Shown here: positions 1-38,047 of the stretch, in pieces | How positions within the stretch are numbered: position 1 is the first letter of the stretch | Layout of the letters: each line of letters opens with the position of its first letter | Assembly (NCBI GenBank): GCA_947492885.1 | Contig: CANLPK010000006.1 | Coordinates: forward strand, 1 to 62,724 | Direction of reading: 5' to 3' | Length of the DNA: 62,724 nucleotides | From: Bacteroidota bacterium | Lineage (GTDB): Bacteria > Bacteroidota > Bacteroidia > UKL13-3 | The notes under the pieces: generated by a model | Database searches by the model: none | Told to the model about the DNA's origin: nothing | The model's input: the letters and a program-made list of their open reading frames with translations, nothing else | Translations under genes and position numbers: made by a program

Positions 1-471
1 TTGATAGAATAAAGTCGGGTAAATTTTTGTTCGTTGCATTTTCTGTACCACATGTTGAATTTTTTCATCCATCTCCAAGGGGTTACTCATGGGTGCAAGC
101 GCTTGCATATCGAGGTGGTTGATGGCGCCATCCCACATGAACTGCGACATCCATGCTAAATTCATTAAGGCGGGAGCATTGCGTGTTCCAATTCTATTGT
201 CGATACCGTGGCTTAGGGCGTGGTCGACATGGGCGAACGCAGTATATTGTGAGTGGCAACTATTACAGGAGATGGTACTATCGCGCGATAAAATGGGATC
301 ATAAAATAAAACCCTTCCTAAATTTATTCGCGCTCTGGAAAGCGGATTCTTTTTCAAATCATAAACGGGCTTGGGCCAGTTTTTTGGAGCAGTAAACAAA
401 GGTGCTTCGTGCAAAAGTGCTCCGAATGTGAATGCCACTAGGATGAAAAAAACAAGATGAATCTTCTTCAT
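1..471 (-). CDS. MauG/MbnH-like di-heme cytochrome c peroxidase, partial at window edge
   Basis: Reading leftward from an ATG at 471, 157 codons run off the window without a stop. The N-terminus is a hydrophobic signal segment (MKKIHLVFFILVAFTFG). It is followed by the family's 'LGRVLFYDPILS' block and a c-type heme motif CNSCH near residue 71, then 'FMWDGAINHLDMQA', the usual continuation after the first heme. By family this is a periplasmic di-heme enzyme that uses H2O2 or stored oxidising equivalents; the second heme domain lies outside the window. Its start overlaps the stop of the MbnP-like gene by 4 bases (ATGA), so the two are probably translationally coupled. A complete homologue with the same partner lies at 36595-37653. 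Peroxidase versus MbnH-type Trp oxidation cannot be told from this part. Confidence 0.88.
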   Translation of the reverse strand, partial: MKKIHLVFFILVAFTFGALLHEAPLFTAPKNWPKPVYDLKKNPLSRARINLGRVLFYDPILSRDSTISCNSCHSQYTAFAHVDHALSHGIDNRIGTRNAPALMNLAWMSQFMWDGAINHLDMQALAPMSNPLEMDEKIQHVVQKMQRTKIYPTLFYQ

Positions 472-1172
472 GGCTGGCATTTAAAATTTTTAGCGATGAT
501 GGCTGCAATGCGCACTGCAGCTTCACCTGGGGTCATGACTAAGTTTTCTTTCACAAGATTTATTTCTTCAATGCACGCTTTGATATCGAGATTGATTTCA
601 ACAGTATCATTGTTTGGGATATCTATTACAATGCGCTGCAATGCATTATACGGAGCTAAGTAGCCACCCAAATGAAATTGAAATTCATGCTGACGCGTAT
701 TGCAAAGATTGGAAACACCTTCGAGTTTTAAATTGATATAACCACTTTGCCAGGTCCAATACATCCCTTTGGTTGGGTCTAAGTCGCCCTCCAAAGCCCC
801 GGAAACATTGGTTAAGCTGTCGATGCCTAAGTGAAACTCGAGTTGATTAAATGCTTTTGTTGTATTGGATTTTTTATTTGCAGCAGGAAGCCCGAATTGC
901 ATTGAAGGAGGATTGGAAAGATCGATCAAGTGTGCTTGATTCGATTCACTCCATACCGTTTCATTATTTTGTTTTAATGTAATTCCTGAAATATAAAAAC
1001 GAAGTGTTTCAATTTTTAGGGAATCGTACTCATGGAATTTATAGAAGGTATCGAGTTGCAAATTATGATTGTCATACAAGGCCTTGAACTCCAGTCGCGG
1101 CAATGCATTGGTTTGTGCGGCGATTTGATTCAGCCACAAACAACAAAGAAATAAAATGCGGATACTCATCAA
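468..1172 (-). CDS. MbnP-like periplasmic copper-protein family
   Basis: This 234-residue protein has a Sec signal peptide ending near 'LNQIAAQ'. The core carries family features: an N-terminal beta strand 'LEFKALYDN', a block 'EFHLGIDSL', and the Trp/Tyr-rich segment 'GMYWTWQSGYINLKLEG' at about residues 134-150, followed by an 'FHLGGY' histidine strand. MbnP proteins are periplasmic and, in the characterised methanobactin system, carry a kynurenine made from a Trp by the MauG-like partner MbnH and bind copper. The partner gene follows immediately with a 4-base overlap, which supports the assignment. Two nearby Trp residues in the expected segment are candidates for modification. No methanobactin genes are visible, so the role here is likely generic copper handling or an unknown oxidation. 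Confidence 0.8.
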   Translation of the reverse strand: MMSIRILFLCCLWLNQIAAQTNALPRLEFKALYDNHNLQLDTFYKFHEYDSLKIETLRFYISGITLKQNNETVWSESNQAHLIDLSNPPSMQFGLPAANKKSNTTKAFNQLEFHLGIDSLTNVSGALEGDLDPTKGMYWTWQSGYINLKLEGVSNLCNTRQHEFQFHLGGYLAPYNALQRIVIDIPNNDTVEINLDIKACIEEINLVKENLVMTPGEAAVRIAAIIAKNFKCQP

Positions 1173-33639: not shown

Positions 33640-33911
33640 TTTAGTTGGTATTATATTTATTGTTAGTTGTGGTAATGCGTGTCCTTTCTCAAAACTTTTT
33701 GTTTATTTCCCAGCTTTCAACTGCACTTGTAAATTATCTATGGCGAAATTATTCTCATCACCATTGATTTTACATGATGCAAGTCAGGATTCAATATGAT
33801 ATAAGTAATTTCTTCCATTCATAAAATGAGCAAAGTAAGTGGAGTTATTCTCATGACTTGAGTCATAGGTTTCCCAACCTCACCTAAGCATATTTGTAAA
33901 CGAATTAACCT

Positions 33912-34532
33912 ATGAGTGCCCCAAAACAATTGCCTGAATTAATTAATGCAACTTCTTATGAGTTGTACAAGAACCGCGTGCTCGATTTAGCAAAATTGGG
34001 TATTACCAGTGGCATAGAACCTACTGAGGAGCGGATTGAAGCTACTAAAATCAATGCGCAACGAATGAAACGTATTGATAAGTACGCTGAAGTAATTCCA
34101 TCGATTGATCGTTTGCTTGGCAACTTGAAACGCCCATGGAAATGGATTGTTTTATCGGAGGCCTGGTGTGGCGACAGCGCTCAATGTTTGCCCTTCATTG
34201 CCAAAATTGCTAGTTTATCGGAGCATATTCAAATGCAAGTAGTAATGCGAGATGAGAACCCCGAATTAATGAATATGTACCTAACCAAAGGTTCACGCTC
34301 CATCCCTAAGTTAATTTGTTTAGATACCTTAACCGGAACAGAATTGGGGGTTTGGGGGCCACGCCCAAAAGGGATTCAAGAACGTGTTGATGAATATAAA
34401 TCCCAAAATCCTGATGTTACCCATGAAGTATTTGTAGTGAATTTACATCTCTGGTATGCACTCGATAAGGGCGAATCGTTACAAGCGCAATTTGAAACCA
34501 TCCTTGCCGAATGGATAAATATGAAAATCTAA
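33912..34532 (+). CDS. thioredoxin-family protein with WCGDSAQC active site
   Basis: This 206-residue protein has no signal peptide. A thioredoxin fold occupies about residues 70-160, with a Cys pair in 'AWCGDSAQCLP' (CxxxxC rather than CxxC) and the cis-Pro segment 'GSRSIPKLICL'. The N-terminal 60 residues are helical. Such proteins are widespread in Bacteroidota ('thioredoxin family protein') and their substrates are unknown. The gene is 11 bases upstream of proline dehydrogenase and probably co-transcribed; a link to redox protection during proline oxidation is speculative. Confidence 0.88.
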   Translation: MSAPKQLPELINATSYELYKNRVLDLAKLGITSGIEPTEERIEATKINAQRMKRIDKYAEVIPSIDRLLGNLKRPWKWIVLSEAWCGDSAQCLPFIAKIASLSEHIQMQVVMRDENPELMNMYLTKGSRSIPKLICLDTLTGTELGVWGPRPKGIQERVDEYKSQNPDVTHEVFVVNLHLWYALDKGESLQAQFETILAEWINMKI

Positions 34533-34543
34533 ATATAAGTAAT

Positions 34544-35737
34544 ATGCCACTTCCCCAACTCTCATTTGAAAATACTGAAAAGGCTTTCAAAGCCAAAGAT
34601 AAAGGTGAACTCCGCCAGTCGATATGGCTTTTTAAATTAATGGGACAACCCTTATTAGTAAAACTCTTTTCAAAGCTCACCATCTTCGCAATAAAAATTG
34701 GGTTGCCTATTAGAAGGCCCATCAAAGCAACTATTTTCAAACAGTTTTGCGGAGGCGAATCCATCGATGAAAGCAAGGCGGTGGTTACTCGATTGGGTAA
34801 ATCACATATCGGATCGATACTCGATTATTCGGTAGAAGGAAAAGACAGTGAAGAGGATTTTATCAAGACCAAGGATGAGATTTTGAAAATTATTGCGGTG
34901 GCAAAAGACAATCCAGCAATCCCCTATACCTGCTTAAAACTAACCGGCATCGCGCGTTTCGGACTCTTGGAAAAACTCACTGCCAAAACAGCTTTGAGCA
35001 AACAAGAAGAAGAAGAACTGCATCAGGTAAAACAACGACTCGCTGAAATTTGCTGGCATGCCGGCGAATCGAATGTGCCAGTATATATCGATGCCGAAGA
35101 AACTTGGATTCAGGAAGCCATTGATATGATTGCCGAAGAAGCCATGGCAAGGGAGAATAAAAAGTCGGCAATAGTGCTCACCACCATACAAATGTATCGT
35201 TGGGACCGATTGGATTATTTACATAAACTCATTGCCAAAGCAAGGGAAGGGAATTTCTTTATTGGCATCAAACTGGTGCGTGGGGCCTATCTCGAGCGCG
35301 AAAATATTCGTGCTCAACAAATGAATTACCATACCCCAATGCAAGGGTGTAAAGATGATACTGATCGCGATTTTGATAAGGCCGTTGAAATTTGCTTGGA
35401 GAATATTGATATCATCACGCTTTGCGCTGGTACACACAATGAAGCGAGCACCATGCATTTGGTTCATAAAATGGCAGAGATGAAAATTGCGAATGATCAT
35501 CCACATGTATACTTCTCTCAGCTCTATGGCATGAGCGATCATATCACTTATAACTTGGCCGATGCTGGATATAATGTAACCAAATATTTACCTTATGGAC
35601 CAGTGAAATCGGTGATTCCTTACCTAATTCGCAGAGCCTCTGAAAATACCGCCATTGCTGGGCAAATGAGTCGTGAATTGCGTTTGATAATTGAAGAGAA
35701 GGAGCGCAGGCAATATGCTCATATGTTACCTGCCTAA
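34544..35737 (+). CDS. proline dehydrogenase (FAD-dependent)
   Basis: I use the ATG at 34544 (397 residues) since family members start just before 'LSFENTEKAFKAK'; an in-frame ATG at 34511 lies inside the previous gene. This is the monofunctional ProDH barrel: 'KLTGIARFGLLEKL', 'YIDAEETWIQEAID', 'QMYRWDRLDYL', 'FFIGIKLVRGAYLERE' and 'YLPYGPVKSVIPYLIRRASENT'. The last block carries the conserved substrate-binding Arg pair 'RRASEN'. It oxidises proline to pyrroline-5-carboxylate and passes electrons to quinone. The P5C dehydrogenase partner is not in the window. Confidence 0.95.
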   Translation: MPLPQLSFENTEKAFKAKDKGELRQSIWLFKLMGQPLLVKLFSKLTIFAIKIGLPIRRPIKATIFKQFCGGESIDESKAVVTRLGKSHIGSILDYSVEGKDSEEDFIKTKDEILKIIAVAKDNPAIPYTCLKLTGIARFGLLEKLTAKTALSKQEEEELHQVKQRLAEICWHAGESNVPVYIDAEETWIQEAIDMIAEEAMARENKKSAIVLTTIQMYRWDRLDYLHKLIAKAREGNFFIGIKLVRGAYLERENIRAQQMNYHTPMQGCKDDTDRDFDKAVEICLENIDIITLCAGTHNEASTMHLVHKMAEMKIANDHPHVYFSQLYGMSDHITYNLADAGYNVTKYLPYGPVKSVIPYLIRRASENTAIAGQMSRELRLIIEEKERRQYAHMLPA

Positions 35738-35863
35738 TAAGATTTGTTTTATATTCTAAATGCTTGATATTTAGTGTAACACTAGTTGCAGTAATCGAAT
35801 GATTTCACTCATACTTTACTAGTGCATTTATCGCTAATATTGAAATACTAAATTATAAATATC

Positions 35864-36589
35864 ATGAAATCTATTTATGCAATCATATTCATCGCGCTTT
35901 TTACTGCATGTACTAAAAAGGTAAGCCCCCCTCCAGGAACCGAAACTCCTGCAACAGAAATGGTTTTAAATGTGAGCTATCATGCTGATCAGGTTCCGCT
36001 AGTTTCCGATTCGTTTATTTATACTACACAAGCGGGATATCAATACAGCGTCAATAATCTTATTTATTACCTATCTCGAATTAGCTTAATAAAGTTGGAT
36101 AGCAGTTTGGTAGAAGTAAAAGATTATTTATTTATGGATGCCTTTAACGCCAATACCAATAAGGTGGTTATGGGAGGAATTCCAGCAGGCAATTATATTG
36201 GATTGAAATTCAATATTGGCTTGGACCCAAAATTAAACAGAACCGATTCGTTGCCAGCCACGGTCGACAATATCAATATGCAATGGCCCATGATGATGGG
36301 CGGAGGATATCATTTCATGAAATTTGAAGGCTATTTCAAGGATCAGGGGAAATCGTATGGATTCAATATGCATCTCGGAACTGATACCTGCCTGATTCCA
36401 GTCAAACTTTATAAAGCAATCACGATTACTGAGGGTACCAAAACCCCGATTTTTATGAATATGAATATCAATGAATGGTTTCGCAATCCTGCGGTATTCG
36501 ATTTTAATACAGATGGGAATTATATTATGGGCAATGTCGTTGCTATGAAGAAATTTGCAAATAATGGAGTTGATGTTTTTAAATTTTAA
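35864..36589 (+). CDS. MbnP-like lipoprotein, second copy
   Basis: This 241-residue protein has a lipobox (LFTAC, Cys at about 17), unlike the first copy which has a Sec signal peptide. Family blocks are 'VSYHADQVPL', 'YYLSRISLIK', 'LKFNIGLDPKLN', the Trp/Met-rich 'MQWPMMMGGGYHFMKFEG' (about residues 140-157) and 'FNMHLGTDTC'. The Met- and His-rich character of the core suggests a metal, probably copper, site. A MauG-like peroxidase starts 5 bases after the stop, the same gene pairing as at 1-1172. A single Trp stands in the segment where the characterised MbnP is oxidised to kynurenine, so modification by the partner is plausible but unproven. Confidence 0.85.
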   Translation: MKSIYAIIFIALFTACTKKVSPPPGTETPATEMVLNVSYHADQVPLVSDSFIYTTQAGYQYSVNNLIYYLSRISLIKLDSSLVEVKDYLFMDAFNANTNKVVMGGIPAGNYIGLKFNIGLDPKLNRTDSLPATVDNINMQWPMMMGGGYHFMKFEGYFKDQGKSYGFNMHLGTDTCLIPVKLYKAITITEGTKTPIFMNMNINEWFRNPAVFDFNTDGNYIMGNVVAMKKFANNGVDVFKF

Positions 36590-36594
36590 GTGTC

Positions 36595-37653
36595 ATGAAG
36601 AAATTAATCTATCTATCACTCGTAATTTTGGTAATGGCTTATGCTTGTCAGAAAGGAAATAAACTTCCTGCAGTATATACACCAACACCCTATCAATTGA
36701 ATGTCCCAAAAGGATTTCCACCTCCGTATATTCCTGCCGACAATCCACTCACCGTGGAAGGCATTCGTTTAGGCCGAATGCTCTATTATGATCCTATTCT
36801 ATCCACCAATGGCAGGTCGTGTTCTTCATGTCATAATCCTGGTTACTCTTATTCATTTCCATTGTTTGTGGCGCAATCGGGTGTCAAGACCAGCGTTCCG
36901 GCACATGTTAATTTGGCTTGGGATCCTGAATATTTCTGGGATGGCTCGGCACCGAAGTTGGATTTGATTGGATTGGCTGATTTTGGTCCGGAGTTTTTCA
37001 ATACCAATATGCCCCTTTTATTTGAAAAATTAAAGAAGCATGATAAGTATCCATTATTGTTTAAAGAAGCATTTAATATCGATGATATTTCTATTCTAAG
37101 CGCCGATCAGTTGCAATTGAAAATCGTGTATGCCATTTCACAATTTATGCGCACTATGATTTCATCACAATCGAAGGCTGATAAATTTTTCCGACGCGAA
37201 GTAAATCTTACTCCTGAAGAGATGGATGGATTTCAAACATTTTTCACAGAGCGTGGCGACTGCTTTCATTGTCATGGTTATCCGTTGTTTACTTCTAATA
37301 CCTTTAATAATACGGGGCTCGATTCGATGCCAACGGGTGCCGACTTGGGGTATTATAATGTAACAAAGAATGAAACAGACAAGGGTAAATTTAGTCCGCC
37401 AACCCTAAGAAATATTGAATTCACAGCACCGTATATGCACGATGGCCGGTTTGCAACATTAGAAGAGGTGGTAGAATTTTATAATTCAGGAGTGCATTGG
37501 AATGCCCCCAATATCGACCCACTGATGACCAAGCCAGCGAAGATCTATGGATTGAATCTCACAGTAACGCAAAAAGCCAATTTGGTGAAATTCATGAAAA
37601 CGTTTACCGATACTGCTTTCTTAAACAATCCTGATTTTCGGAGTCCGTTTTAA
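36595..37653 (+). CDS. MauG/MbnH-like di-heme cytochrome c peroxidase
   Basis: This 352-residue protein has a signal or lipoprotein start (MKKLIYLSLVILVMAYAC, lipobox-like 'AYAC'). There are two c-type heme motifs: CSSCH near residue 76 and CFHCH near residue 224. The region 'PYMHDGRFATLEEVVEFYNSG' gives the distal-heme Met/His block usual for this family. It probably works on the MbnP-like protein encoded just upstream. Whether it is a hydrogen-peroxide scavenger or a protein-modifying oxidase cannot be decided by eye. Length is normal for the family. Confidence 0.93.
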   Translation: MKKLIYLSLVILVMAYACQKGNKLPAVYTPTPYQLNVPKGFPPPYIPADNPLTVEGIRLGRMLYYDPILSTNGRSCSSCHNPGYSYSFPLFVAQSGVKTSVPAHVNLAWDPEYFWDGSAPKLDLIGLADFGPEFFNTNMPLLFEKLKKHDKYPLLFKEAFNIDDISILSADQLQLKIVYAISQFMRTMISSQSKADKFFRREVNLTPEEMDGFQTFFTERGDCFHCHGYPLFTSNTFNNTGLDSMPTGADLGYYNVTKNETDKGKFSPPTLRNIEFTAPYMHDGRFATLEEVVEFYNSGVHWNAPNIDPLMTKPAKIYGLNLTVTQKANLVKFMKTFTDTAFLNNPDFRSPF

Positions 37654-37741
37654 GGAGCGGTTTGTTTGTTGATTTTGTAATAGGCAGCTTTCGAATAAGC
37701 GCCTTCTATTTTGTTCTTTAGTTTCGAACTATAACCTACCC

Positions 37742-37838
37742 TATATTCGAAGCATAACTCGTCACTACCGCATCTCCGGCCTATCAAAACGCTGTCCGCC
37801 GTTGCGTCTCTCGACCAACGGCAATTCGAAGACTCTGA
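37742..37838 (+). repeat. palindrome-bearing intergenic repeat, copy 1
   Basis: This is the first copy of a roughly 97-base unit, with the second copy 135 bases further on. It is bounded by TTCGAA sites at 37746 and 37825 and holds a perfect stem GCCGTTG (37798-37804) / CAACGGC (37816-37822) with an 11-base loop. It is visibly richer in G+C than the flanking DNA. No reading frame of note covers it. Confidence 0.85.
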
Positions 37839-37876
37839 CTTGCGATGAATTCTTTCATTTCTACTAAAGCCTAAAA

Positions 37877-37973
37877 TATATTCGAAGGATAACTCTTCAC
37901 TACCGCATCTCCGGCCTAGAAAACCTCTGTCCGCCGTTGCGTCTCCTGACCAACGGCAATTCGAAGACTCCGA
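37877..37973 (+). repeat. palindrome-bearing intergenic repeat, copy 2
   Basis: This is the second copy of the unit. TTCGAA sites at 37881 and 37960 keep the same 79-base spacing as in copy 1. The stem GCCGTTG (37933-37939) / CAACGGC (37951-37957) is unchanged while the loop and other positions differ, which suggests the stem is selected. The 448-base interval 37654-38101 contains no gene; besides the repeats it has two further TTCGAA sites (37690, 37723) and the promoter of the next gene. Confidence 0.85.
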
Positions 37974-38047
37974 ATAACAATGTATTCTATTTGAAAATCC
38001 CCAAACAACTTCCTGTATAGCAATAGCAGCAAAAAGCTTCCGTGTCC

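Follow-up and report, generated by a model that had tools for sequence, protein, structure and literature searches.

The window analyzed here, a 62,724-nucleotide stretch of DNA from a Bacteroidota genome, carries a second MbnP/MauG-like gene pair (pair B). Its two proteins, MbnP-B and MbnH-B, have the family signatures and the folds of MbnP and MbnH, are inherited together, share an upstream box with nor and nos genes of some relatives, and belong to a subtype that is linked to nor and nos genes in Bacteroidia. The enzyme has lost the distal haem pocket of its relatives. Pair B is very probably a member of the nor-nos regulon. Taken as a whole, the explanation that we favor, an anciently diverged MbnP/MbnH subtype of that regulon in Bacteroidia with a copper site containing a modified tryptophan and with non-peroxide chemistry, has in our judgment about an even chance of being correct. 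Judged from sequence, MbnP-B probably binds copper; modification of its Trp141 by MbnH-B may or may not take place, the balance being level, and we are likewise evenly divided on whether the chemistry of MbnH-B would be independent of peroxide. An earlier note on this DNA had proposed that the two pairs in the window serve different copper or substrate niches. A distinct niche is borne out, nor/nos linkage and an FNR-type box pointing to N-oxide respiration, but a niche specific for copper found no support.

Pair B encodes two lipoproteins with MbnP and MbnH folds

Both open reading frames of the second pair were recovered exactly where the earlier note had placed them (35864-37653); they are separated by five bases. 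The LFTAC lipobox that had been read in MbnP-B is present (Cys16), and MbnH-B is likewise a lipoprotein (AYAC lipobox, Cys18). MbnP-B had also been credited with a single Trp; this is correct for the motif MQWPMMMGGGYH (W141) but not for the whole protein, which has a second Trp (W205) elsewhere.

Table 1. Coordinates and properties of the features discussed (positions in the window unless a locus is named)
Feature	Coordinates	Strand	Remarks
MbnP-like lipoprotein, subtype B (MbnP-B)	35864-36589	+	241 aa; PF20243 97.5 bits, cut-off 27
MbnH/MauG-like dihaem lipoprotein, subtype B (MbnH-B)	36595-37653	+	352 aa; PF03150, two CxxCH
MbnP-B residues			M139-x-W141-P142-xx-M145-GGG-Y149-H150, H170, M222
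Putative FNR/DNR-type box TGATTTCACTCA	35800-35811	+	Ends 52 bp before mbnP-B start codon
Second box of the same type (TGACTTGAGTCA)	33854-33865	+	46 bp before thioredoxin-like/proline dehydrogenase genes
Proline dehydrogenase-like gene	34511-35737	+	Same-strand ORF just upstream of pair B
MbnP of pair A (WTWQSGY type)	468-1169	-	PF20243 140 bits; separate clade
MauG-like partner of pair A	1-480	-	Cut by contig end (window starts there); canonical pocket (QALAPMSNPLEM)
NorB-like proteins without the aligned FeB His and Glu	L227:13117-14538; L139:10501-11838; L140:14376-15770; L147:6350-7720; L148:15833-17146

MbnP-B passes the curated Pfam cut-off for PF20243. Its AF2 model (pLDDT 92.8) matches MbnP (7l6g) with Z 16.1 over 199 residues, the next best match reaching 4.7; VIA-align matches of the model below Z 5 (fimbrial proteins, transthyretin) were set aside as background. 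A plain sequence search against the PDB was weak (E 0.24), and a profile yielded only a local alignment of the motif. MbnP-B falls short of the WxW-type model TIGR04052, having WPMMM in place of WxW and scoring 42.7 bits where 140 are required (a value also missed by the MbnP of pair A with 45.8 bits). For MbnH-B (model pLDDT 86.3), the best NCBIfam relative is MbnH, and MbnH 6e1c is both the best solved relative by sequence and the top structural match (TM 0.76). Its scores lie below the curated values for MbnH (TIGR04039, 195.4 bits versus 362.85) and for MauG (TIGR03791, 126 bits versus 444), and its partner is MbnP-like. Its two CxxCH motifs (C76xxCH80, C223xxCH227) and dihaem fold are those of the bCcP-MauG superfamily. 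Broadly defined, the MbnP family includes pair B, which lies outside the WxW equivalog, and its enzyme is MbnH-like in fold but does not have the pocket.

All 75 subtype-B pairs analyzed carry the motif M-x-W-P-x-x-(M)-G-G-G-Y-H, compared with M-x-W-x-W-x-x-G-Y-I in other MbnP proteins. W141, M139, H150, H170, and M222 are invariant across the 75 B-type MbnP, and the column of the second Trp is occupied by Met (66/75), Ile, or Leu. When MbnP-B is aligned with Methylosinus MbnP (GMAWNWQAGRRF), its remaining motif Trp falls on the first Trp of WxW, the residue that in the Methylosinus protein is reportedly converted to kynurenine.

Pairs A and B are ancient paralogues

The MbnP of pair A has the motif MYWTWQSGY and no clear lipobox; an intact copy of its truncated enzyme was found in another genome (G002, L068). 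The genome that contains the window also holds a third pair, C (contig C19:5567-7450), overlooked in the earlier note. Pair C (L227:5567-7450, G000:C19) is of NWTFGY type, lies ~6 kb upstream of the NorB-like gene of this genome, and adjoins two tryptophanase/tyrosine phenol-lyase-like genes; a TGA-N6-TCA box was looked for upstream of it and not found. Since PF20243 is present in 84 of 97 related genomes, mostly in more than one copy each, several pairs per genome are the normal state here. A second species of the genus (G002:C25) has the same A/B arrangement, again with ~35 kb between the pairs.

A tree built from 104 MbnP proteins places A, B, and C in three separate clades, and every MbnP that has the B motif belongs to a single group (SH-aLRT 99). 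The MbnH partners of B-type MbnP also form one group (support 98), and the two trees correlate with r = 0.86, the largest of 500 shuffles giving 0.10. Hence pairs A and B are ancient paralogues that were inherited as pairs, which agrees with the claim in the earlier note that they do not stem from a recent duplication; both trees rule out a reading as recent in-paralogues. When motif columns were removed, B-type MbnP remained on one side of a branch (support 99). Removal of pocket columns retained the B/WxW split of the MbnH tree with a support of only 13, so the monophyly of the enzymes depends partly on the pocket.

B-type mbnP genes share an FNR/DNR-type upstream box

The sequence upstream of mbnP-B contains the pattern TGA-N6-TCA, the form of FNR/DNR-family sites. 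A second such box precedes the thioredoxin-like/proline dehydrogenase genes, and a further match lies at 33775-33786. Within 200 bp upstream, the pattern was found for 59/77 B-type mbnP genes and for 6/76 WxW-type genes (shuffled expectation 4.6 and 4.3, respectively). The enrichment is confined to a spacing of six, with none at spacings 4, 5, 7, or 8, and the positions of the sites are concentrated between about -40 and -100, the consensus being TGA[CT]N4[GA]TCA. A similar box is found before mbnP-B in the four other genus members inspected. The same pattern precedes nosC, norC, the fasciclin gene, or the tryptophanase/tyrosine phenol-lyase genes in several relatives, not in all. Across the whole window, TGA-N6-TCA is no commoner than chance (29 versus 24.6 expected), and the weight of the evidence therefore lies in the comparison across genes.

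Pair B is linked to nor and nos genes

Neighboring genes of 20 loci were clustered and named; one locus (L158) has a canonical pocket and was excluded, leaving 19 B pairs. The neighbors include a NorB-like haem-copper subunit (best PDB matches to nitric oxide reductase NorB), a NorC-like cytochrome c, a RIC/YtfE-type di-iron protein, NarK, MoaA, CRP/FNR regulators, tyrosine phenol-lyase/tryptophanase, class II ribonucleotide reductase, QueD, and NadAB. NorB/NorC lie within ~9 kb of 9/19 B pairs and of 0/20 control WxW pairs; NorB, NorC, RIC, NarK, or MoaA are near 12/19 and 1/20, respectively, and adding CRP, class II ribonucleotide reductase, and the lyase brings the B pairs to 15/19, several of these loci being related, so that the draws are not independent. 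In the own family, the B pair lies inside nor-nos islands in 8/8 further clusters inspected, with an order of the type norC-norB-queD-...-mbnP-mbnH-(fasciclin)-nosC-nosZ-nosL-nosD-nosF-nosY and local rearrangements. The predicted box and the eight islands together make it very probable that pair B belongs to an FNR/DNR-type nor-nos regulon. In the window, pair B is not adjacent to nor or nos genes; in this genome, NorB is on contig C19 and NosZ on C46. Homologues of the proline dehydrogenase-like gene upstream of pair B (cluster c10) occur in 5/20 neighborhoods, the own-genus copy (L155) included, and in L229 a Pro_dh protein is encoded between norB and queD.

Two side observations concern these surroundings. 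A fasciclin-domain lipoprotein frequently adjoins the B pair or nos genes (L230:5201-5815, L231:7954-8505, L228:10972-11526), and in the two cases checked its gene has the same upstream box as mbnP-B. Just past the mbnH stop codon, the window contains two 126-bp direct repeats (37728-37988; 85% alike, 135 bp apart); this is an interspersed repeat, matched 13 times across the genome in full or in part.

Among 64 genomes of the family, 26 contain both B-type MbnP and the NorB-like gene, and the other 38 contain neither (Fisher 2e-18). In a class sample of 395 genomes, the B enzyme, as read from sequence, was found in 59, NorB in 77, and NosZ in 129; the B enzyme occurs with NorB in 42 genomes, with NosZ in 51, and with either in 53/59. 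Seventeen subtype-B genomes have no NorB, and six have neither NorB nor NosZ. The subtype was not found in 35 NorB-bearing genomes, a count that, like others of its kind at class level, is an upper bound, because weaker-scoring B enzymes may be missed. The link between pair B and NorB is strong but not obligatory at class level. A profile search at 1e-105 of a 395-genome phylum sample found no additional enzyme; this sample shares genomes with the class and sets no limit to the distribution.

NosZ is a copper enzyme, and pair B might be its accessory, loading or storing Cu(I) for CuZ/CuA. This reading is possible though doubtful. It accords with the share of subtype-B genomes that have NosZ (51/59 in the class; 24/26 in the family, versus 4/38 family genomes without the subtype) and with the position of the pair next to nosC-nosZ in several islands. 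However, the four family genomes that have NosZ but no NorB also lack pair B, which rejects NosZ as the sole driver; the pair was not found in 78/129 NosZ genomes of the class sample (again an upper bound); and the cluster already encodes a protein with a NosL domain, the copper chaperone usual in nos systems. NirK was rejected as a copper client, being present in only 6/64 family genomes, and no recurrent copper gene other than nos genes was seen beside pair B in the neighborhoods.

In the family, pair B and NorB-like genes coincide exactly; this, the nearby RIC/YtfE, NarK, and CRP/FNR genes, and the loss of the peroxide pocket would also suit a pair that handles NO. Its remodelled haem would bind or sense NO, or only pass electrons, the Trp would stay unmodified, and the partner would act as a redox or copper relay. 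We consider this rather unlikely, since a Trp141 that is invariant in 75 MbnP-B and the strict co-inheritance of the partners fit a substrate better than a sensor.

The NorB-like proteins listed in Table 1 keep GHH, but where cNOR has the first His ligand of FeB and a Glu close by, they have variable residues and Val in the alignment. The label nitric oxide reductase is provisional for this reason; the NorB-like proteins of Bacteroidia are possibly a separate NOR or haem-copper subtype.

The distal pocket of MbnH-B is lost

The most unusual feature of pair B, overlooked by the earlier note, is the loss of the distal pocket at the N-terminal haem. The Gln/Pro/Glu residues (with Met) are kept in 66/66 partners of WxW-type MbnP (Glu, Met, and Pro in 66/66 each; Gln in 60/66) and lost in 75/75 subtype-B enzymes. 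In the latter, Glu is replaced by Phe in 74/75, Met by Phe in 72/75, and Pro by Asp, Phe, or Tyr in 75/75, while the residues common at the Gln position do not include Gln. MbnH-B of the window has I125/D129/F134/F135 in place of Gln/Pro/Glu/Met; aligning E133 with the missing Glu instead was rejected, E133 not being conserved. MbnH-B retains CSSCH80, CFHCH227, the inter-haem W115, Y152, and M281-H282-D283 of PYMHDG. H104 is present in 69/75 subtype-B enzymes (missing in 6), Asp129 in 41/75, and Phe130 in 37/75. An Asn is named as a calcium ligand in PMC10094543, and its distance of 15 residues from the inter-haem Trp makes it correspond to position 100. Here 41/75 B enzymes have Ser, and 57/66 of the others have Asn.

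The association between the MxWPxx(M)GGGYH motif and pocket loss is complete in the sample (75/75 versus 66/66 pairs; 61/61 versus 68/68 in a second, overlapping set for which the length limit was relaxed), and it counts as one evolutionary event because both changes share one origin. The change of motif and pocket is a single ancient co-inherited event that was kept over much divergence. A description of this subtype was not found in the literature searched.

Divergent B enzymes have a shortened loop (LEDxMxFEVxxFF) at the pocket (L128, L135, L159-L161, L164-L170, L172, L174, L175), and the pocket has therefore been remodelled further in part of the clade. Separately, three genomes of one family group (L132, L134, L162) have a pocket-less MbnH-like enzyme beside which no MbnP was detected; this enzyme stands in NarK/MoaA/RIC surroundings (L151).

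Pair B could nevertheless perform the ordinary MbnP/MbnH function, as a diverged copper-acquisition pair that forms kynurenine with H2O2, Asp129 or His104, for example, having replaced the pocket. The families and folds are the same, both haems, W115, Y152, and M-H-D are retained, the first motif Trp is invariant, and the partners are co-inherited. We find this distinctly unlikely. The Glu position holds no conserved acid, and neither Asp129 nor His104 is universal. Elsewhere in the superfamily, bCcPs, MauG, and BthA are described as all conserving the three pocket residues (Gln, Pro, Glu) (PMC6405878), and single Glu/Gln variants of a bCcP were reported to be inactive (PMC10094543). Genomic context and promoter are also sharply unlike those of WxW pairs. 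That MbnH-B is the inactive relic of a decaying paralogue, as the loss of catalytic residues viewed in isolation might suggest, is scarcely credible and was rejected: across more than ten family groups, 75 pairs have kept their reading frames open, their lipoboxes, the two haem motifs, and many residues specific to the subtype, and the promoter box is conserved as well.

Proposed function of pair B

According to the explanation we favor, low oxygen or NO would switch on pair B through an FNR/DNR-type regulator, and the two envelope lipoproteins would then meet as enzyme and substrate. MbnH-B would oxidize the invariant Trp141 of MbnP-B, and the modified residue, together with invariant Met and His, would form a Cu(I) site, for which M139, H150, H170, M222, and usually M145 are the candidates. 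Such a site may hold or protect copper during N-oxide respiration, for example copper destined for NosZ.

As to the oxidant, O2 or NO bound at the N-terminal haem would be a more likely route than H2O2/bis-Fe(IV). MbnH-B probably does not use the latter, because the peroxide-activating residues are gone and a Phe-Phe stretch, usually with the new His104, is found instead. In RoxA, a dihaem enzyme of this superfamily, O2 is held in a hydrophobic pocket for which a Phe is essential (PMC10837239), and with this precedent the altered pocket of MbnH-B is compatible with an O2- or NO-binding haem; in the alignment, Phe134/135 (and Phe130 in 37/75) replace polar residues and may lie over the haem. 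A more specific version would have MbnH-B modify its partner Trp without a peroxide pocket, with O2 (as a RoxA-like dioxygenase) or NO as oxidant or ligand, to make a new modified-Trp/Met/His copper site in nitric oxide respiration, possibly serving a NorB-like haem-copper enzyme that has no usual FeB ligands; in this detail the proposal is speculative and, on balance, unlikely.

MbnP/MbnH pairs are widespread and have no settled role outside methanobactin producers. A nor-nos-linked subtype offers a concrete, testable setting for such a role, the reduction of N2O and NO by Bacteroidota, the phylum to which about half of the partial denitrifiers that end in N2O reduction belong (PMC12569097). 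The clade-wide natural loss of three pocket residues is, in addition, a direct test of the need for them in MauG-type chemistry.

Comparison with known systems

The closest known counterpart of MbnP-B is MbnP of Methylosinus trichosporium (PF20243; 7l6g), with which it shares the fold, the Pfam family, the first motif Trp, the Met two residues before it, and a gene position directly before that of an MbnH-type enzyme. MbnP-B differs in having WPxx(M)GGGYH instead of WxW, with the second Trp gone and new invariant H150 and M222, in being a lipoprotein, in its low score against the NCBIfam WxW model, and in its nor-nos context, not one of methanobactin genes. MbnH (TIGR04039; 6e1c) is the closest solved relative of MbnH-B in sequence and structure and has the same two c-type haems and PYMHDG; in MbnH-B, the distal Gln/Pro/Glu/Met pocket is absent, the family score is 195 versus 363 bits, and Arg99 and often the Asn100 position (a calcium ligand by spacing) are changed.

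MauG, bacterial dihaem cytochrome c peroxidases, and BthA have the fold and the two haems of MbnH-B, and the inter-haem Trp is as in MauG and bCcP. These enzymes keep the three pocket residues (PMC6405878, PMC10094543), whereas subtype B has none of them. The dihaem dioxygenases RoxA/RoxB and 10S-DOX belong to the same superfamily and have a hydrophobic, Phe-containing pocket over the N-terminal haem. They are, however, far larger proteins with other substrates, and the likeness to MbnH-B would be one of pocket character alone. CorA/CorB and MopE, although not markedly similar in sequence to MbnP (PMC3621798), resemble what is proposed for pair B, in that a surface copper protein stands beside a dihaem enzyme and a Trp-derived kynurenine lies at the copper site.
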